Origin: Streptomyces graminofaciens
Lineage (GTDB): Bacteria; Actinomycetota; Actinomycetes; Streptomycetales; Streptomycetaceae
DNA length: 64,000 bases
Assembly (NCBI RefSeq): GCF_030294945.1
Contig: NZ_AP018448.1
Location: 9,768,501 to 9,832,500 of the forward strand
Direction of reading: 5' to 3'
The notes under the pieces are model-generated. The model saw nothing but the letters and a program-made list of their open reading frames with translations. It searched no databases and had not been told where the DNA came from. Every line of letters begins with the position of its first letter. Within the stretch, counting starts at the first letter, position 1. The position numbers were made by a program, and so were the translations under genes. Shown here piece after piece: positions 37,319 through 45,201 of the stretch.

Positions 37319-38398
37319 TCAGCGGTCCGCCAGGGTCAGCGCGCGGTCCAGGGCCTGGAGGAAGTGGTTCACCGTCGTCCGGTCGCGCACCGCGAGCCGC
37401 AGCCACTCCTCGCCCAGGCCCGGGAAGGTGTCGCCGCGGCGCACGGCGAAGCCCAGGGTGCGCAGATGGCGGCGTACGGCCGTCGCGCGGGGCACGCGGA
37501 CGAGGACGAACGGGCCCTCGGCGGGCTCGGCCACCGTGAGGCCGTCGGGGGCGAACTCCTTGAGCCCGGCGACCAGATGGGCGCGGTCGGCGGCGACCCG
37601 GTCCGCCGCGTCGGCCGCCTCCGCCAGGGCCAGGGGCGACACACACGCCTCGGCCGCCGCGAGCGCGGGCGTGGACACCGGCCACAGGGGCTGGGCCCGC
37701 TCCAGATCCGCGATCGTCTCGGGGGCGGCGAGGACGTACCCGATCCGCAGCCCGGCCAGCCCCCATGTCTTCGTCAGGCTGCGCAGCACCACCAGACCGG
37801 GCACATCCGTACGACCGGCCAGCGCCTCGCGCTCGCCCGGCACCGCGTCCATGAACGCCTCGTCGACCACCAACATCCGCCCGGGACGGGCGAGTCGGGC
37901 GATCGACGCGGCCGGGTGCAGTACCGACGTGGGGTTCGTCGGGTTGCCGACGACGACGAGGTCCGCGTCCTCCGGTACGGCCGCCGGGTCCAGGCGGAAG
38001 CCGTCCTCGGCCCGCAGCAGGACCCGGTCCACGGTGTGCCCGGCGTCCCGCAGCGCGGCCTCCGGTTCGGTGAACTGCGGGTGCACGACCGCGGGCCGAC
38101 GGACCTTCAGGGCGCGGGCGAGCAGCACGAAGGCCTCGGCGGCGCCCGCGGTGAGCAGCACCCGGTCCACCGGCAGCCCGTGCCGGGCCGCGACCGCCGC
38201 CCGCGCCCGACGCCCGTCGGGGTAGGCGGCGAGCCCGGTCAGCGAGTCCGCGATCCGCGACCGCAGCCAGTCGGGCGGCGTACCGGCGCGCACGTTCACG
38301 GCGAGGTCGACGAGTGCCGCCCCGTCGTCACGGACCTCGGCGTCCCCGTGGTGCCGCAGATCGTGCCGGGCGCCCTCCGGATCCGTTTCAGTGTGCAT
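37319..38398 (-). CDS. cobC: CobC-like PLP-dependent aminotransferase/decarboxylase (Rv2231c family)
   Basis: 359 residues from ATG at 38398; ATG 38410 is an in-frame alternative. Class I/II PLP fold: NPTNPTSVLHP, VVDEAFMDAVPGE, and the Schiff-base lysine in LRSLTKTWGLAGLRIGYV. This group is related to histidinol-phosphate aminotransferase and to CobC/CobD threonine-phosphate decarboxylase, which supplies the aminopropanol linker of cobalamin. Its position after cbiX in the cob unit favours the latter. It overlaps the end of cbiX by 11 bp and is the last gene of the unit. Confidence 0.82.
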   Translation of the reverse strand: MHTETDPEGARHDLRHHGDAEVRDDGAALVDLAVNVRAGTPPDWLRSRIADSLTGLAAYPDGRRARAAVAARHGLPVDRVLLTAGAAEAFVLLARALKVRRPAVVHPQFTEPEAALRDAGHTVDRVLLRAEDGFRLDPAAVPEDADLVVVGNPTNPTSVLHPAASIARLARPGRMLVVDEAFMDAVPGEREALAGRTDVPGLVVLRSLTKTWGLAGLRIGYVLAAPETIADLERAQPLWPVSTPALAAAEACVSPLALAEAADAADRVAADRAHLVAGLKEFAPDGLTVAEPAEGPFVLVRVPRATAVRRHLRTLGFAVRRGDTFPGLGEEWLRLAVRDRTTVNHFLQALDRALTLADR

Positions 38399-39335
38399 GG
38401 GAGTGCGCATGCCCTCCGTGGCGATGGTGATGCCCGTGACCGTCGCCGTGCCCGTGGTGGCCGTCGTCGTCGGGGTGGAAGTGCGGCTGCTGCGGCATGC
38501 CCACCTTGTCCTCGAAGCCGGGCAGCGCGATCCGGTACACGCACGAGTCGCAGTTCATGCGCAGATCCCCCTCCAGCGCTTCCCGGTACCGCTCCATGAC
38601 CAGGTCCAGCAACTCCGGTTCCGGTCCGATGACATCGGCAGACCGTACCTCGACCTCCGGGTGCGCCGCCGCCCACCCCTCGGCCTGCTGCAGCACCCGC
38701 TCCGGCAGGATGCCGGTGAAGAGGAAGTACGGCAGGACGACGATCCGCTTCGCGCCCAGCTTCACGCACCGGTCGAGCCCGCTCGGCACGTCCGGCGCGG
38801 CCAGCGACACGAACGCCGTCTCCACGCCCGCGTAGCCCCGCCCCTCCCACAGCAGCCGCGCCGCCTTGTACACCTCGGCGTTGGCGTCCGGGTCGGTGGA
38901 ACCGCGCCCGACGAGCAGCACGGTCACCTCCGCCCGGTCGCCCGGGGTACGGCCGTCGCCGCCGAGCGCCTCGTCGAGCCGCCGCTCCAACACGCGCAGC
39001 AGCGCCGGATGCGGGCCCAGCGGACGGCCGTAGGTGTACGAGATCCCCGGGTGCCGCTCCTTCTCCCGGGCCAGCGCCGCCGGGATGTCCCCCTTGGCGT
39101 GCCCGGCGGACACCAGCATCAGCGGCACCGCGGCGAATCGCCGCACCCCCCGCTCCACCAGCTCGGCCACGGCCTCGCCCAGCGGCGGCGGGGACAGCTC
39201 GATGAAGCCGCCCGCGACGGGCAGTTCGGGGTGTCGGCGCCCCAACTCCCGTACGAAGTCGCGGAACGCCTCGGCTCCGGCATCGTCCCGGGTGCCATGA
39301 CCGGCGATGAGCAGGGCGGGCGGCGGGGTGGTCAC
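38388..39335 (-). CDS. cbiX: Sirohydrochlorin chelatase CbiX with histidine-rich tail
   Basis: 315 residues from GTG at 39335, with GAGGAG five bases upstream. Two CbiX-type half domains: LLIAGHGTRDDAGAEAFRDFV (metal-binding His) and TVLLVGRGSTDPDANAEV with PYFLFTGILPERV. The tail after CVYRIALPGFEDKVG is very rich in His, Asp and Gly (over a dozen His in the last 30 residues), as in other CbiX proteins thought to hold metal. It inserts cobalt into sirohydrochlorin early in the cobalamin pathway. The start overlaps the stop of a 33-codon frame (GTGA). Confidence 0.9.
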   Translation of the reverse strand: MTTPPPALLIAGHGTRDDAGAEAFRDFVRELGRRHPELPVAGGFIELSPPPLGEAVAELVERGVRRFAAVPLMLVSAGHAKGDIPAALAREKERHPGISYTYGRPLGPHPALLRVLERRLDEALGGDGRTPGDRAEVTVLLVGRGSTDPDANAEVYKAARLLWEGRGYAGVETAFVSLAAPDVPSGLDRCVKLGAKRIVVLPYFLFTGILPERVLQQAEGWAAAHPEVEVRSADVIGPEPELLDLVMERYREALEGDLRMNCDSCVYRIALPGFEDKVGMPQQPHFHPDDDGHHGHGDGHGHHHRHGGHAHSHAH

Positions 39336-39433
39336 GATTTCTCCTCGGAGTGTGGAACGAACGGGTACAGCCGGTACAGCGAGTACGGCGGGGCGTCGTG
39401 GACGGCGGCGGGCACCGGCGGCCGGACCTTCAC
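39332..39433 (-). CDS. Micro-ORF (33 codons) between cobJ and cbiX
   Basis: GTG at 39433 overlaps the cbiG/cobJ stop (GTGA) and has AGGAGG seven bases upstream. Its TGA overlaps the cbiX GTG (GTGA). About 91% of third codon positions are G or C, as in real genes here. The peptide starts MKVRPPVPA, is rich in Pro and Tyr (PPYSLYRLYPFVPHSEE) and has no membrane segment. The frame exactly fills the gap, so translation of cbiX is probably coupled to it. Function unknown: a small protein of the pathway or a translational relay. Confidence 0.6.
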   Translation of the reverse strand: MKVRPPVPAAVHDAPPYSLYRLYPFVPHSEEKS

Positions 39434-41169
39434 CTCGGGTCCTCCTGCCAGCGGTAGCCACGCGGTGTGACCATACGCCCCGCGATCTGACGGGTCGCCG
39501 TGTTGCCCACGGTCACCACGGTCATCATGTCGACCGTCGCCGGATCGAGCGAGCCCAGGGTCGTCACCCGCGCGGACTCGTCCGGCCGTGAGGCCTGCCG
39601 TACGACACCGACCGGCGTCGACGGCTCCCGGTGCTCGGCCAGGATGCCGAGGGCCTTCGGCAGTTGCCAGTCCCGGCCCCGGCTGCGCGGGTTGTAGAAC
39701 GTCACCACGATGTCCGCCTCGGCCGCCGCCCGCACCCGCCGCTCGATGACCTCCCACGGCGTGTGCAGGTCGGACAGGCTGATCGACACATGGTCGTGGC
39801 CGAGCGGCGCGCCGAGGATCGCGGCGGCGGCGAGCGCCGCGGTGACGCCCGGTACGCCGATCACGTCGATGTCGTCGGACGCCTCCGCGAGCGCGGGGGA
39901 GGCCATGGCGTACACGCCCGCGTCCCCGCTGCCGATCAGCGCGACGGCCTGCCCCTTCCGGGCCTCCGCCACGGCCGTGCGCGCCCGTTCCTCCTCGGCG
40001 CCGAGCCCGGACTCCAGGATCCGGGTGCCGGGCCGGAGCAGATCGCGGATCTGGTCGACGTACTGGTCGAGCCCCACGAGTACGGAGGCGCGGGCGAGTT
40101 CGGCCTTGGCGCGTGGCGTCAGCAGGTCACGGGCGCCGGGCCCGAGCCCGACCACCGCGAGCCGCCCGCGCGCCGGCCGCCGTACGACGGCACAGGTCGC
40201 CATCGCCGGCTGTCCGTCCGTACGCTCCGACTTCCGCTTGGGGACGAGGAGTTCACCCCCGCGTACGAGGGCGGCGGCCTCGGCGACGGACGGGGTGCCC
40301 ACGGCGGCGAGGGGCGCGTCGGAGGGGTTCGGGACGTCGACCTCCGCCAGCTCCTCGGCGGAGTGGGTGACCAGCGGTACGCCCAGGCGTTCGGCGGCCT
40401 CGACGATGCCGGGTTCGCCGGCCTTGGCGTCGACGGTGGCGATCTCGGCGAGGGACTCGGGGGAGAGGCCCGCGTCGCGCAGGGTCTCCTCGATCAGCCC
40501 GAGCACTTCGTCGAGAGGGGCGCCCTTGGAGGCGCCCACGCCGACCACCAGGGACGGGGGACGGAGGAGGACTTCACCTTCGGCGGGTTCGACCGCGCGG
40601 TCCGTCACGCGGATCACCGGTGCGCTTTCCTGCGAGCGGCGGCTCGGAGTGCGCACAGCGTCCGGCGCCGGGCGCCTGACGTTCGACGGCAGCGCGGGCA
40701 GGGGCCAGCCGAACTCCAGGTCCAGCTCGACGGCCTCCCCGTCGAGCACAGCCCGAGACACCCCGGCGACATCCCCCTCCACCGGGAACCCGAGCGTGTC
40801 CAGACCGGGTACCCCCACCGCATCCGTGGCGGTCGTCACCACCGGCTCCGCACCCAACAACTCGCCCACCTCACGGGCGAGTTCATTGGCGCCACCCCCG
40901 TGCCCGCCGACCAGCGAGACAGCGAACCGCCCACCCTCGTCGACACACACCACACCCGGGTCGGACGCCTTGTCCCCCAGCAGCGGCGCGAGCAGCCGTA
41001 CGGTCGCGCCCGTGGCGAGGAAGCACACCAGCTGGTCGCACTCCCCGAACGCGCGCACCACGGCGTCCCGTACGGGCCCTGCGTAGACACGTGTCCGCTC
41101 GGGCCAGGCCGAGGCGAGCCGCTGGGCGGCAACGGCCCCCGCGGCGGTCGCGGAGATCAGGCCGATCAC
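39430..41169 (-). CDS. cobJ: Fused cobalt-precorrin-5A hydrolase (CbiG) and precorrin-3B C17-methyltransferase (CobJ)
   Basis: 579 residues from GTG at 41169. Residues 1-330 are CbiG (IGLISATAAGAVAAQRLA, FLATGATVRLLAPLL, GGHGGGANELAREVGELLG, VGVGASKGAPLDEVLGL). From about 345 to the end is a SAM-dependent tetrapyrrole methylase of CobJ/CbiH type (LAVVGLGPGARDLLTPRAKAEL, IGSGDAGVYAMASPALAE, VVTFYNPRSRGRDWQL). The fusion joins ring contraction and lactone opening, two successive steps. It overlaps micro-ORFs by GTGA at both ends. Confidence 0.92.
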   Translation of the reverse strand: MIGLISATAAGAVAAQRLASAWPERTRVYAGPVRDAVVRAFGECDQLVCFLATGATVRLLAPLLGDKASDPGVVCVDEGGRFAVSLVGGHGGGANELAREVGELLGAEPVVTTATDAVGVPGLDTLGFPVEGDVAGVSRAVLDGEAVELDLEFGWPLPALPSNVRRPAPDAVRTPSRRSQESAPVIRVTDRAVEPAEGEVLLRPPSLVVGVGASKGAPLDEVLGLIEETLRDAGLSPESLAEIATVDAKAGEPGIVEAAERLGVPLVTHSAEELAEVDVPNPSDAPLAAVGTPSVAEAAALVRGGELLVPKRKSERTDGQPAMATCAVVRRPARGRLAVVGLGPGARDLLTPRAKAELARASVLVGLDQYVDQIRDLLRPGTRILESGLGAEEERARTAVAEARKGQAVALIGSGDAGVYAMASPALAEASDDIDVIGVPGVTAALAAAAILGAPLGHDHVSISLSDLHTPWEVIERRVRAAAEADIVVTFYNPRSRGRDWQLPKALGILAEHREPSTPVGVVRQASRPDESARVTTLGSLDPATVDMMTVVTVGNTATRQIAGRMVTPRGYRWQEDPR

Positions 41170-41261
41170 CGGTCAACTCCTTCACTGTGCGCCGGAGGCC
41201 GCATGCCCCACAGCGGAAATACGGGCGGAAGTACGGGATGCGTGGTCGTCGGCCGGCTCAC
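41166..41261 (-). CDS. Micro-ORF (31 codons) between cobM and cbiG/cobJ
   Basis: GTG at 41261 overlaps the cobM TGA (GTGA), and the TGA at 41168-41166 overlaps the GTG of cbiG/cobJ. The frame therefore tiles the gap exactly, like the one at 39332-39433. Third-position GC is only about 68%, weaker than real genes. The peptide contains PPVFPLWGMRPPAHSEG; PP-x11-HSE also occurs in the other micro-ORF. The HSE-region codons carry the GAAGGAG ribosome site of the next gene, so part of the similarity may be imposed by that. Confidence 0.45.
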   Translation of the reverse strand: MSRPTTTHPVLPPVFPLWGMRPPAHSEGVDR

Positions 41262-42094
41262 GGAGTGCCGCCCTGTTCCCGTGCCTCGCGACGCGCCTCA
41301 CGCAGGGCCTTGCGTGCCGTCGGGTCCGCCTTGCGGTACCCGTGGAAGTGGCCGGGGTGGTACAGGTGCGAGCGCGTGCCGTGGGCGTCGAGGGCCGGGC
41401 CGACCAGGAACAGCGTGTGCTTCCAGAGCTTGTGCTCCTTGACGGTCTCCTCCAGCGTCTCGATCGTGCAGCGCACGACGAGTTCCTCGGGCCAGGTCGC
41501 CTGGTACGCGACGACGACCGGTGTGGACGTCGGGTAGCCGCCCTCCAGCAGCTCCCGTACCAGCTGGCCGCTGCGCGCGGCCGACAGGAACACGGCCATG
41601 GTCGTGCCGTGCCGCGCGAACTCCCGCACCTCCTCGCCGGGCGGCATGGGCGTCTTGCCGCCGCCGAGCCGGGTGAGGATCACGGACTGCGCGACCTCCG
41701 GGATCGTCAGCTCGCGCTGCGCGAGCGCGGCGACGGCCGAGAAGGAGGAGACACCGGGGACGATCTCGGTCGCGATCCCCAGCGCCCGGCACCGGTCGAC
41801 CTGCTCCTGCGTGCCGCCCCACAGGGCCGGGTCGCCGGAGTGGATACGGGCGACCTTCAGCCCCTCGGTGACGGCCCGCTCGTACACGGCGACGACGTCC
41901 TCCAGGGACATGGCCGCCGAGTCGAGGATCTCGGCGCCCTCACGCGCGTGGTCGAGGACCTCCGCCTGGACCAGGCTGGCCGCCCAGATCACGACATCGG
42001 CCTCCGCGATCGCCCGCGCGGCCCGAAACGTCAACAGATCGGCGGCACCGGGCCCGGCACCGACGAAAGTCACCTTGCCGGTGTCAGCAGCCAT
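41258..42094 (-). CDS. cobM: Precorrin-4 C11-methyltransferase
   Basis: 278 residues, ATG at 42094 with GAGGAT upstream. Tetrapyrrole methylase motifs: VTFVGAGPGAADLLTFRAARAI (P-loop-like), SGDPALWGGTQEQ, VPGVSSFSAVAALAQRELTIPE, and ILTRLGGGKTPMPPGEE, which is characteristic of CobM/CbiF. It methylates C11 of the corrin precursor. First gene of the second cob unit; its promoter region contains dispersed repeat D and is shared with the divergent ZIP gene. Confidence 0.93.
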   Translation of the reverse strand: MAADTGKVTFVGAGPGAADLLTFRAARAIAEADVVIWAASLVQAEVLDHAREGAEILDSAAMSLEDVVAVYERAVTEGLKVARIHSGDPALWGGTQEQVDRCRALGIATEIVPGVSSFSAVAALAQRELTIPEVAQSVILTRLGGGKTPMPPGEEVREFARHGTTMAVFLSAARSGQLVRELLEGGYPTSTPVVVAYQATWPEELVVRCTIETLEETVKEHKLWKHTLFLVGPALDAHGTRSHLYHPGHFHGYRKADPTARKALREARREAREQGGTP

Positions 42095-42116
42095 GGGGGA
42101 TCGATCCTCTCTGGGT

Positions 42117-42207
42117 GGTGGCGCGCCCCCGAGGGGCGCGGGCAGTGTCGATGTGCGGCTCCGCCGCGTGGGCGCGACCAGCCACGACGAACCCGCGGTC
42201 GGCAACG
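42117..42207. repeat. Dispersed intergenic repeat, copy D
   Basis: Carries the 17-bp core at 42156-42172, preceded by GCGCCCCCGAGGGGCGCG and TGTCGATGTG and followed by CGCGACCAGCCACGACGAACC. It fills most of the 184-bp gap between divergent cobM and the ZIP gene. Confidence 0.7.
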
Positions 42208-42278
42208 GGCCCCACAAGCGAGCCACAGCTACGGGGTGCCGCAGGCAAGAGGCCCAGCTCTTCCGGTAGCAAAGACCC

Positions 42279-43007
42279 ATGGCTGTGTTCGTCGCGCTCG
42301 GCGCGTTCCTCATGACGCTGCTCGGCGGCTGGACGGCACAACGCGTGACGGACCGCCGTCACCTGGTGCTGGGCCTGGCCGGCGGCCTGATGCTGGGCGT
42401 GGTCGGCCTGGACCTGCTGCCGGAGGCGCTGCGGGCCGCCGGCGACGAGGTCTTCGGCGTACCGGCCGCGCTGCTGCTGTTCGTCGCCGGGTTCCTGCTG
42501 GCGCATCTGGTGGAGCGGTTGCTGGCCGCCCGTCAGGCGGCGCACGGGGCGGAGGAGCCAGGCGGCCGTACGCCCGAGGTGGGCCTGACGGCCGCCGCGG
42601 CCATGGTCGGCCACAGCGCCATGGACGGCGTCGCGATCGGCGCGGCCTTCCAGGTCGGCGGGGGCATGGGCGTGGCGGTCGCGCTCGCGGTGATCGCCCA
42701 CGACTTCGCGGACGGCTTCAACACGTACACCCTCACGAGCGTGTACGGCAACGCCCGCCGCCGCGCGCTCGCGATGCTGTTCGCCGACGCGGCGGCCCCG
42801 GTGCTGGGCGCCGCCTCCACGCTCCTCTTCACGATCCCGGAGGGCCCCCTCGGCTGCTACCTCGGCTTCTTCGGCGGCGCGCTGCTCTACCTCGCCGCCG
42901 CCGAGATCCTCCCCGAGGCCCACCACGAACACCCGGCCCGCTCCACGCTGCTGTGCACGGTCGCCGGGGCGGCGTTCATCTGGCTGGTGGTGGGCGTGGC
43001 GGAGTGA
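42279..43007 (+). CDS. ZIP-family metal transporter
   Basis: 242 residues with eight predicted membrane segments. The metal-binding helices carry HSAMDGVAIG (segment 4) and HDFADGFNTYT (segment 5), the ZIP signature. A variable cytoplasmic loop (AARQAAHGAEEPGGRTPE) lies between segments 3 and 4. ZIP proteins import zinc, iron or other divalent metals. Its position between two cobalamin units makes cobalt a reasonable candidate (inference). It is on the opposite strand from all cob genes. Confidence 0.87.
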   Translation: MAVFVALGAFLMTLLGGWTAQRVTDRRHLVLGLAGGLMLGVVGLDLLPEALRAAGDEVFGVPAALLLFVAGFLLAHLVERLLAARQAAHGAEEPGGRTPEVGLTAAAAMVGHSAMDGVAIGAAFQVGGGMGVAVALAVIAHDFADGFNTYTLTSVYGNARRRALAMLFADAAAPVLGAASTLLFTIPEGPLGCYLGFFGGALLYLAAAEILPEAHHEHPARSTLLCTVAGAAFIWLVVGVAE

Positions 43008-43030
43008 GCGGCCCGGTGTGATGCGTGTGC

Positions 43031-43765
43031 TCACAGCTTGCCGCCGCGCCCGCCCTCGCGCCGGGCGGGCGCGATGAGGGTGGAGAGGTAGGGGAGGGGG
43101 CTGCCGTCCAGATGGGCGGCGGAACGGATGGACTCCTCCGCCAGCCCGAGCGCGGACCCCCACACGGCGTCCTCGATCCGCCCGGTCTCCCGCAGCGCCT
43201 CGGCGACCTCGGCCGCCTGCCGCCCGAACTTGTACGCGACGACGGTGCCGGGCCCCTGAAGAGCGTCCTTCAGTACGGCCGAGCCCGCCGTGACCGGCAC
43301 GAGCGTGAGCGGCTCGGTCCCCTCCGTCAGCACGGCACCGGAACGCGCGGCGAGGTCCTGCATGGCGGTGATGCCCGGCACGGTCTCGACGACGGTCCCG
43401 GGCACGACCTCGCCGATGGTCTGCGCGAGATAGGTGAAAGTGGAGTACACGTTCGGATCACCGATGGTGGCGAAGGCGACGGTCCCGTGCTCCCGGAGGA
43501 GCTGGGCGACGCGCTCCCCGGCGGCGTCCCAGGCGGCCTCGCGCCGCGCCCGGTCGGTCCGCTCGTTGAGCGCGAACACGACCCGTACGACCTTCTCGAC
43601 GCCCACGTAGTGCAGCACGGTCGCCTCGGCGCGCCCTCGCTCTCCCGTGTCCATCACGGGCACGACGACGACATCGGCGTCCCGCAGAGCGTTGACACCC
43701 TTGACGGTCACCAGCTCGGGATCGCCGGGACCCACCCCGACTCCGATCAACCTGCTGCTGCTCAT
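43031..43765 (-). CDS. cobI: Precorrin-2 C20-methyltransferase
   Basis: 244 residues, ATG overlapping the cobB stop (ATGA). SAM-dependent tetrapyrrole methylase: LIGVGVGPGDPELVTVKGVNAL, VVVVPVMDTGERGRAEATVLHYV, IGDPNVYSTFTYLAQT and VETVPGITAMQDLAARSG. The pattern is that of CobI/CbiL, which makes precorrin-3A from precorrin-2. Last gene of the riboswitch-controlled operon. Confidence 0.92.
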   Translation of the reverse strand: MSSSRLIGVGVGPGDPELVTVKGVNALRDADVVVVPVMDTGERGRAEATVLHYVGVEKVVRVVFALNERTDRARREAAWDAAGERVAQLLREHGTVAFATIGDPNVYSTFTYLAQTIGEVVPGTVVETVPGITAMQDLAARSGAVLTEGTEPLTLVPVTAGSAVLKDALQGPGTVVAYKFGRQAAEVAEALRETGRIEDAVWGSALGLAEESIRSAAHLDGSPLPYLSTLIAPARREGGRGGKL

Positions 43766-45201
43766 GACGTCCGGCACCTCTCCACGAACCGACGGGCGAC
43801 ACCGGGCTCGGACGCCCAGTGCGTGTGCAGATAACTCGCGTGCACACCTCGCTGTACAAAACCCTCGACCCGTCGTACGGGCGTACGCACACCCCAGGCG
43901 GGAGCGGCCCCCGCGCCCGGCTCGACGACCGTCCGGTGAAACTCGTGCCCCCGCATCCGGGTCCCGGCGACGGCGAGCACGCTGTCGCTCACGGCGACGG
44001 CGTCCCGGTACCCGAGGGTGAGCCGCTCGCTCATCCGGGCGTCGGCGTCGAGCACGCCGCACATGGGCCGCCCGTCCAGCTCCCGGCACAGATACAGCAG
44101 CCCGGCACACTCGGCGGCGACGGGAGCGCCGCTCTCCGCGAGCGCCGCAACGGCCTTGCGCAGGGGCTCGTTGGCGGACAGCTCGGAGGCGTACACCTCC
44201 GGAAAGCCGCCGCCGATCACCAACCCGCGTGTTCCGTCGGGCAGTCGCTCATCACGGAGGGGGTCGAAGGGGACGACTTCGGCACCGGCGGCGGTGAGCA
44301 GTTCGGCGTGCTCGGCATAGGAGAACGTGAACGCCGATCCACCGGCGACAGCAACCCTCAGCCCGTCCGGCGTCCGAGGACGAGGCTCTTCGGGCCGAAG
44401 GCGGGGGTCTGGGGGCGCAGCCCCCGGGGACGGGACGGGAAGGGGCGGCGGGGGCGAAGAGGCAAGCGCCCCGGCCGCGTCCCAAGCCGCACACGACAAC
44501 GCCCCCGCACTCCGCGCCAGCCCTACCAGCGCCTCAAGATCGCACCCCGCCGAAACCTGCGCAGCCATCGCGGCAACAGCCTCCACGGCCGCCGCCCGCC
44601 GCTCGGCGACCGGCACCAGCCCCAGATGCCGCGAAGGAGTGTCCACCTGGGCGACTCGCCGCAGGACTCCCAGCACCGGAACCCCTGCCGACTCCAGCGC
44701 CTCCCGCAGCAGCTCCTCGTGCCGGTCCGAGGCGACCTTGTTCAGGATCACGCCCCCGACCCGCACCTCCGGGTCCCACGACACGAAGCCATGCACCAGC
44801 GCGGCCACCGACCGCGACTGCGACGACGCGTCCACGACCAGCACCACCGGCGCCCGCAGCAACTTCGCCACATGCGCGGTGGACGCCAGCTCACCCTCCC
44901 CGGCGGCCCCGTCGTACATCCCCATCACACCCTCGACGACGGCGAGGTCACACCCGGCCGCCCCGTGCAGAAACAGTGGAGCGACCAGCTCCGGCCCGCA
45001 CAGATACGCGTCGAGGTTCCGCCCCACCCGCCCGGTCGCGAGCGCGTGATACCCGGGGTCGATGTAGTCCGGCCCCACCTTGTGCGGGGACACGGCGAGC
45101 CCCCGCGCGGTGAACGCGGCCATCAACCCCGTGGCGACGGTGGTCTTGCCGCTGCCCGAGGAGGGCGCGGCGACGACCAGCCGTGGGACGGACGTACTCA
45201 C
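43762..45201 (-). CDS. cobB: Cobyrinate a,c-diamide synthase (hydrogenobyrinate)
   Basis: 479 residues from the GTG at 45201, in a GTGA overlap with cobO; GTG 45204 is an alternative. N-terminal dethiobiotin-synthetase-like ATPase (LVVAAPSSGSGKTTVATGLMAAF, AVVEGVMGMYDG) and C-terminal glutamine amidotransferase domain with nucleophile Cys in AAECAGLLYLCRELDG. It amidates the a and c side chains of the corrin ring using glutamine. A Pro-rich linker with low complexity (SSPPPPLPVPSPGAAPPDP) separates the domains. Confidence 0.94.
   Translation of the reverse strand: MSTSVPRLVVAAPSSGSGKTTVATGLMAAFTARGLAVSPHKVGPDYIDPGYHALATGRVGRNLDAYLCGPELVAPLFLHGAAGCDLAVVEGVMGMYDGAAGEGELASTAHVAKLLRAPVVLVVDASSQSRSVAALVHGFVSWDPEVRVGGVILNKVASDRHEELLREALESAGVPVLGVLRRVAQVDTPSRHLGLVPVAERRAAAVEAVAAMAAQVSAGCDLEALVGLARSAGALSCAAWDAAGALASSPPPPLPVPSPGAAPPDPRLRPEEPRPRTPDGLRVAVAGGSAFTFSYAEHAELLTAAGAEVVPFDPLRDERLPDGTRGLVIGGGFPEVYASELSANEPLRKAVAALAESGAPVAAECAGLLYLCRELDGRPMCGVLDADARMSERLTLGYRDAVAVSDSVLAVAGTRMRGHEFHRTVVEPGAGAAPAWGVRTPVRRVEGFVQRGVHASYLHTHWASEPGVARRFVERCRTS

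Follow-up and report, generated by a model that had tools for sequence, protein, structure and literature searches.

A stretch of 64,000 nucleotides of Streptomyces graminofaciens DNA (contig NZ_AP018448.1, positions 9,768,501 to 9,832,500; hereafter the window, meaning the whole stretch) includes a cob operon in which two micro-open reading frames (micro-ORFs) of 31 and 33 codons lie between cobM and the cbiG-cobJ fusion gene and between cobJ and cbiX. The operon is read on the minus strand, and its gene families were identified by scans with Pfam and NCBIfam/TIGR profiles. Along the minus strand, the order was cobI, a ZIP-type gene on the plus strand, cobM, the 31-codon frame, cbiG/cobJ, the 33-codon frame, cbiX, and an aminotransferase gene. 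The features of the two gaps and their neighbors are listed below, where the two frames are assigned from alignments.

41258..42094, minus strand: cobM, precorrin-4 C11-methyltransferase, with its stop codon in GTGA (TIGR01465, 324.6 bits, cutoff 259.65)
41166..41261, minus strand: stub 1, cobL remnant, 31 codons and a stop (3'-end DNA alignment and peptide match to an intact cobL tail)
41177..41182, minus strand: AAGGAG, ribosome-site-like sequence of cbiG/cobJ, within stub 1 (junction listing)
39430..41169, minus strand: cbiG-cobJ fusion gene (CbiG_N, CbiG_C, and TP_methylase; TIGR01466 cobJ_cbiH, 284.3 bits)
39441..39446, minus strand: AGGAGG upstream of stub 2, within the C-terminal codons of cobJ (junction listing)
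39332..39433, minus strand: stub 2, cobH/cbiC remnant, 33 codons and a stop (local DNA match with the cobH 3' end, less strong than that of stub 1)
39341..39346, minus strand: GAGGAG, ribosome-site-like sequence of cbiX, within stub 2 (junction listing)
38388..39335, minus strand: cbiX-type chelatase with a His-rich tail (Pfam CbiX, E-value 5.8e-61)
37319..38410, minus strand: class I/II aminotransferase gene following cbiX, cobC-like judging by its position (PF00155)

A prior sequence-only reading had described both gaps as filled exactly by frames that start in the upstream stop and end in the downstream start, and this description was confirmed for 41166-41261 and 39332-39433. GTGA was found at all four junctions: cobM/frame 1 (41258-41261), frame 1/cbiG (41166-41169), cobJ/frame 2 (39430-39433), and frame 2/cbiX (39332-39335). 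Each junction is thereby a four-nucleotide stop/start overlap of the kind that marks termination-reinitiation coupled gene pairs. The same reading considered four such overlaps improbable by chance, which was only partly upheld. Their coincidence with gene boundaries is unusual, but 70 ORFs of 15 to 60 codons in the 64 kb begin and end within ATGA or GTGA (minus strand, 41; plus strand, 29). Since such ORFs are common in the window, the overlaps by themselves prove nothing and were left out of the evidence. The remarks on composition were accurate: AGGAGG (39441-39446) stands 7 nt before the 33-codon frame, whose third-position GC content (GC3) is gene-like (30 of 33 codons, or 91%; 0.882 if the stop codon is counted), and the 31-codon frame has a weaker codon bias, with a GC3 of 0.656.

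Relatives of the locus were collected by a CbiG-CobJ scan of genome contigs, from which the best 80 of 483 confirmed loci were retained, 79 of them titled Streptomyces. Most of these 80 had gaps of about 1.2 kb between cobM and cbiG and about 0.6 kb between cobJ and cbiX. In L001 (S. ipomoeae), for example, the gaps hold an in-frame CobL/CbiET of 419 amino acids and a CobH/CbiC of 200 amino acids, with both families confirmed. The sample was then extended to 104 loci, comprising the 80, 29 more, and the window, minus the duplicates L153, L154, L160, and L162 and the incomplete L177 and L181. The 29 added loci came from 80 genomes, namely the window's own genome and 79 picked for carrying a divergent second cobH (cobH2). 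Where cobL was intact in this set, cobM ended in GTGA, ATGA, or TTGA in 92 of 94 loci. Where cobH was intact and cbiX lay on the contig, cobJ ended in one of the same three motifs and cbiX started in GTGA in 66 of 66 loci each. The phase of the intact gene fitted overlaps at both ends in 90 of 94 loci for cobL and 64 of 66 for cobH.

The last 59 nt of stub 1 aligned without gaps to the 3' end of L001 cobL, with 54 identical positions. Stub 2 aligned locally, in the same codon register and with gaps near the end, to the cobH 3' ends of L001 and L006. When the 31-residue peptide was searched against 150 genomes of the genus, its best match outside its own genome was in G139 (73% identity, E-value 4e-6), where the matching segment is the tail of an intact cobL adjoining cbiG, at the same locus as L180. 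The corresponding search with the 33-residue peptide returned nothing outside its own genome below an E-value of 0.02. Neither peptide matched a Pfam family: the CbiE and CbiT domains that characterize CobL/CbiET were not found in the 31-codon product (P0001), nor was PF02570, the CobH/CbiC precorrin-8X methylmutase family, in the 33-codon product (P0002). PF02570 was matched by an intact relative (P0007) and by a second copy (P0008). On these alignments, the 31-codon peptide is a fragment of the CobL/CbiET family and no member of it, and both micro-ORFs are deletion stubs of cobL and cobH, each made of a start codon and native C-terminal codons in frame.

A pattern, PP-x11-HSE, had also been pointed out in the two peptides. 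It is present in both, but as a shared motif it looks coincidental and was rejected, since its parts have separate origins in each frame. As the sequence-only reading had cautioned, HSE overlaps the ribosome site of the next gene, the E codon of both frames falling in the ribosome-site-like sequence. The HS of frame 1 belongs to the native cobL tail (HN at that place in L001) and its PP accompanies a 12-nt tandem repeat with one mismatch. The PP of frame 2 sits at a Leu-Leu of intact cobH.

The chain of stop/start overlaps was largely retained wherever either gene had been lost. Among the 104 loci, cobH was missing from 35, of which 28 carried a stub ORF running from the cobJ stop to the cbiX start, four had a direct 4-nt overlap of the two genes, and three (L029, L157, and L163) were broken, leaving the chain intact in 32. 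The cobL gene was missing from ten loci, and the chain was kept in every one of them, by six in-frame stubs and four direct overlaps. A single tree of concatenated cobM, cbiG-cobJ, and cbiX, inspected by eye, gave approximately 18 lineages in which cobH had been lost. The chain was present in 16 of these and absent in L157 and L029, with L163 as an exception inside a chain-keeping lineage. With one third, or six, expected in frame, the binomial probability of 16 in 18 is 1.7e-6. Treating the four losses near the window as a single event, with the gene regained in L001 and L006, lowers the count to about 15. Clade A showed gap lengths of 76, 82, 88, 91, and 112, with the frame kept throughout. 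A tally of stop codons per frame (0/4/1 for gap 2 in 23 loci and 0/2/4 for gap 1 in five loci) was dropped as evidence, because in-frame loci alone were counted and the zeros arose by construction.

Searching 392 genomes at the DNA level with the stretch from the cobJ end to the cbiX start supplied a later set of 13 loci, which represent 13 further genomes with cobH2 among the matches listed. The chain into cbiX was kept in 12 of them: stubs occurred in L214 (two chained), L217, L220, L225, and L226, direct overlaps in L215, L216, L219, L221, L222, and L223, and in L218 the overlapping start was fused in frame to cbiX. It was broken in L224. Eight of the 13 (L214, L217, and L219 to L224) had also lost the CobJ domain, with the C-terminal part of CbiG matched alone, and all eight belong to genomes that had given no match at an E-value of 1e-60 in the earlier search. 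In these eight, no cobM or cobL match was found within the fetched stretch, and the C-terminal CbiG part and cbiX were kept. The chain remained intact in seven of the eight, apparently in part through frames other than the original. Frameshifts or stops in the frames of relatives, which the sequence-only reading had named as grounds for doubting its proposal, were therefore rare, at three of 35 cobH losses, none of ten cobL losses, and one of the 13 later loci.

Conservation of the frame was not accompanied by a comparable conservation of the peptide. The ratio of nonsynonymous to synonymous substitution rates (dN/dS) of the cobH stub was 0.84 in clade A (six loci), 1.07 in clade B (four loci), and 1.21 in clade C (two loci), and reached 1.68 in three of the six loci of clade A. 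For the neighboring cobM, cbiG-cobJ, and cbiX at the same loci, it was 0.04 to 0.18, with 0.09 to 0.18 as the range set against the three clade values. A synonymous-site bias, which had been suggested as a check on the frames, was thus absent in these clades, and three other comparisons gave values below 1. The stub peptides appear to evolve about neutrally in clades A, B, and C, and as the frame is kept meanwhile, selection seems to act on the frame rather than on the peptide.

The losses coincided with the presence of a second cob cluster. In the window's own genome, this cluster lies about 0.9 Mb away (10701000-10720999, L150) and carries divergent copies of cobH and cobL. Family scans confirmed cobL2, cobIJ, cobH2, and cobG within it, and by sequence we take it to include cobalt-transport genes, a second cobM, and cbiD-, cobK-, and cobN-like genes as well. 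A third cobL-like gene was located at 10.26 Mb, its CbiE score exceeding the NCBIfam cut-off and its CbiT score falling short of it. The search for cobH covered 50 of the 80 named genomes, the 30 outside it all having an intact operon cobH. A divergent second cobH, at 45–47% identity, was found in 11 of 11 genomes that had lost the operon copy and in one of 39 (L007) with an intact one. For cobL2, 50 genomes were chosen, ten with cobL loss and 40 with cobL intact, and the own genome served as the source of the query. A near-full-length cobL2 was present in all ten cobL-loss genomes, the nine besides the query source being 83–92% identical, with one in-frame TAG within the matched stretch in each of G304 and G278. 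The 40 cobL-intact genomes yielded one full copy (L028), one truncated copy (L007), and one match of 47 residues (G377). The truncated copy in L007 (S. curacoi) and the remnant in G377, both beside a kept operon cobL, suggest reciprocal loss between clusters. From these distributions, we infer that redundancy with the second cluster allowed the operon copies to be deleted. In the wider genus sample, in which seven candidates per genome were scored, a cobH match was found in 374 of 392 genomes and, by our reading, was single in all but two (G078 and G367). Genomes of the genus mostly had a single cobH, of either the operon or the second-cluster type.

These results are consistent with a scenario in which, once the second cluster had made them redundant, the operon cobL and cobH were deleted and selection kept an unbroken run of stop/start overlaps afterwards. 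A ribosome that has finished cobM or cobJ would restart at the overlapping GTG, read 31 or 33 codons, stop in GTGA, and restart on cbiG or cbiX. The stub peptide itself would have no role, its function being that of being translated. An untranslated gap in a GC-rich mRNA would invite Rho termination, and the benefit may lie in shielding the message from it or in reinitiation on the next gene. Translational relays had been among the possibilities raised by the sequence-only reading, and they gain support of a comparative kind from the chain kept across cobH and cobL losses in both sets of loci. The micro-ORFs are, very probably, cobL and cobH deletion stubs kept as relay ORFs for translation only. 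In one reporter study, reinitiation fell steeply with intergenic distance in six gene pairs, and in two E. coli pairs the final 15 nt of the gene upstream were enough for it (PMC10666635), so that a short stub would suffice as a bridge.

Several observations weigh against such a relay. Both cbiG and cbiX retain ribosome-site-like sequences of their own, so reinitiation may not be essential, and the reporter work includes one pair that still reinitiated over 14–15 nt (PMC10666635). Four cobH-loss loci are broken across the two sets (L029, L157, L163, and L224). Among nearest stub pairs of unequal length, five of seven differed by multiples of three, the exceptions involving the broken L163 and L157. 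The lineage count was made by eye on a single tree built from the operon itself, and transfer could bring it down to about 15 or less. The 13 later loci are independent neither of each other nor of the first set, with ancestry not factored in. The dN/dS values below 1 were 0.31 for the cobH stub (four changes) and 0.49 for the cobL stub (eight changes) between L164 and L170, and 0.40 between the window and L179 (30 changes, doubtful alignment). For the window's own stubs, neither the 60 relatives examined nor the DNA matches listed yielded a close relative.

Some of these points would also suit an account in which the stubs result from decay alone and are no longer maintained, with a frame left intact by recent deletions or by first deletions that were in frame and non-polar. 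One in-frame deletion can leave a start and a tail, the peptides of clades A, B, and C seem to evolve neutrally, and four loci are broken. Such an account is improbable, however, given the 16 of 18 lineages in frame, the clade A gaps that changed in length with the frame kept, and the later loci that seem to chain through frames other than the original. Still less credible, and to be entertained only barely, is the proposal of the sequence-only reading that the stubs encode a pair of functional small proteins for cobalt or corrin handling. Their conserved position, the gene-like GC3 of stub 2, and the three low dN/dS values speak for it. Yet the sequences diverge widely between lineages except at the codons of the next ribosome site, several lineages have a direct overlap and no stub at all, and in clades A, B, and C dN/dS lies around 1 or higher. 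The proposal was rejected on the divergent sequences, the dN/dS values, the lack of any Pfam match, and the alignments that identify the frames as C-terminal stubs of cobL and cobH.

A frame with similar properties was encountered upstream of cobM, where the following features lie.

43031..43765, minus strand: cobI-like tetrapyrrole methylase, start set at MSSSRLIGVG, stop in GTGA (PF00590 on the longer ORF 43031-44110)
42279..43007, plus strand: ZIP-type metal transporter gene between cobI and cobM (placement in 65 of 85 loci)
42084..43034, minus strand: candidate third relay, an ORF of 316 codons that starts in the cobI stop (GTGA), runs antisense to the whole of ZIP, and overlaps the cobM start by 11 nt (comparative phase and start data)

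The name cobI is presumed from position, and ZIP-type is likewise a presumed name. An opposite-strand ZIP gene separated cobI from cobM in 65 of 85 loci. The convergent spacer between cobI and ZIP had been chosen as an untranslated control. It kept a single phase in 65 of 65 loci, however, and this finding pointed to the antisense ORF. Measured from the cobI stop to a conserved codon of ZIP, the spacing spanned 36 to 561 nt without a change of phase, and all 18 nearest pairs with unequal distances differed by multiples of three. The cobI stop was GTGA in 65 of 65 loci with ZIP versus eight of 20 without it (Fisher P 9.6e-10, uncorrected for ancestry), the remaining 12 being CTGA; all 12 CTC-TGA stops among the 85 loci thus belonged to loci lacking ZIP. 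The last Leu codon of cobI before TGA was CTG or TTG in all 65, and CTG made up 6–89% at 21 other conserved Leu columns. From the cobI GTG, the frame was open antisense through all of ZIP in the 64 of 64 loci examined, ending 42–393 nt past the ZIP start, and the other two antisense frames stopped far earlier, apart from one of them in L054. The codons TTA, CTA, and TCA, any of which would place a stop in that frame, are absent from ZIP: they occurred 0 times in 79 genes versus 7.7 expected from neighboring genes (P 4.5e-4, uncorrected). In L064, an insertion of about 500 bp of imperfect short repeats was observed between cobI and ZIP, and the antisense frame was still open and in phase.

In the window, L178, L001, L004, L008, and L016, the antisense ORF extends over a cobM start, either the sole one or a possible one. 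Usually it ends upstream of the likely cobM start, by up to about 118 nt, a position that fits an RNA kept translated better than reinitiation on cobM. The spacer between ZIP and cobM behaved as expected for untranslated DNA, with 13 of 31 changes between nearest pairs being multiples of three. In 47 of 83 loci, however, this spacer had a length of 2 mod 3, a bias that presumably reflects shared ancestry. The antisense ORF looks like the same relay principle applied across an opposite-strand gene. There is a lesser but real chance that no ribosome relay is involved and that the ORF is instead a genuine overlapping gene coding for a protein, or serves to regulate ZIP expression, as a conserved start codon, a conserved phase, and a ZIP without TTA, CTA, and TCA are what any translated antisense product would need. 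Against this, the ORF has anywhere between about 2 and 176 codons ahead of ZIP and no fixed end point, and an in-register antisense frame is open in any case in genes poor in TTA, CTA, and TCA.

Taken more broadly, we lean towards the view that, in high-GC actinobacterial operons, selection maintains some frames solely for translation, drawn from dead-gene stubs or from antisense frames, such that ribosomes stay on the message from one gene to the next. Among unannotated small ORFs whose frames look gene-like, some may yield functionless peptides that are still selected for translation, and a conserved frame combined with a neutral peptide is suggested as a test to tell a relay from a peptide. 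The same view predicts a route of gene loss from coupled operons and a way in which operons may tolerate an opposite-strand gene. The cob operons of Streptomyces provide many natural replicates, in which the same genes were lost repeatedly in relatives and the stubs mostly kept readable. In the open-access literature searched, no account came up of stubs of dead genes or of antisense frames being maintained as relays, or of such cob gene loss in Streptomyces.

Three known systems resemble parts of this arrangement. The engineered in-frame deletion scars of the Keio collection reportedly keep the start codon and the last codons so as to avoid polar effects. The stubs share with them a start and native C-terminal codons, a length of about 30 codons, and a retained downstream ribosome site, but they are natural, recurred in many lineages, and were followed by frame-keeping evolution. 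A noncontiguous operon is one that contains an opposite-strand gene, and the 65 of 85 loci with ZIP between co-directional genes of one pathway share this layout. They differ in a start codon and phase that would serve translation of the antisense stretch, a feature read here from sequence. Termination-reinitiation coupling at ATGA and GTGA gene overlaps is already known from Huber 2019 (PMC6728339) and Huber 2023 (PMC10666635). Their coupled pairs resemble the present junctions in the four-nucleotide stop/start overlaps, the reliance on a ribosome that terminates at the next start, and the few upstream codons that are enough. In those pairs, however, both partners are genes, whereas the linker here would have no apparent product, being the stub of a dead gene or an antisense frame.

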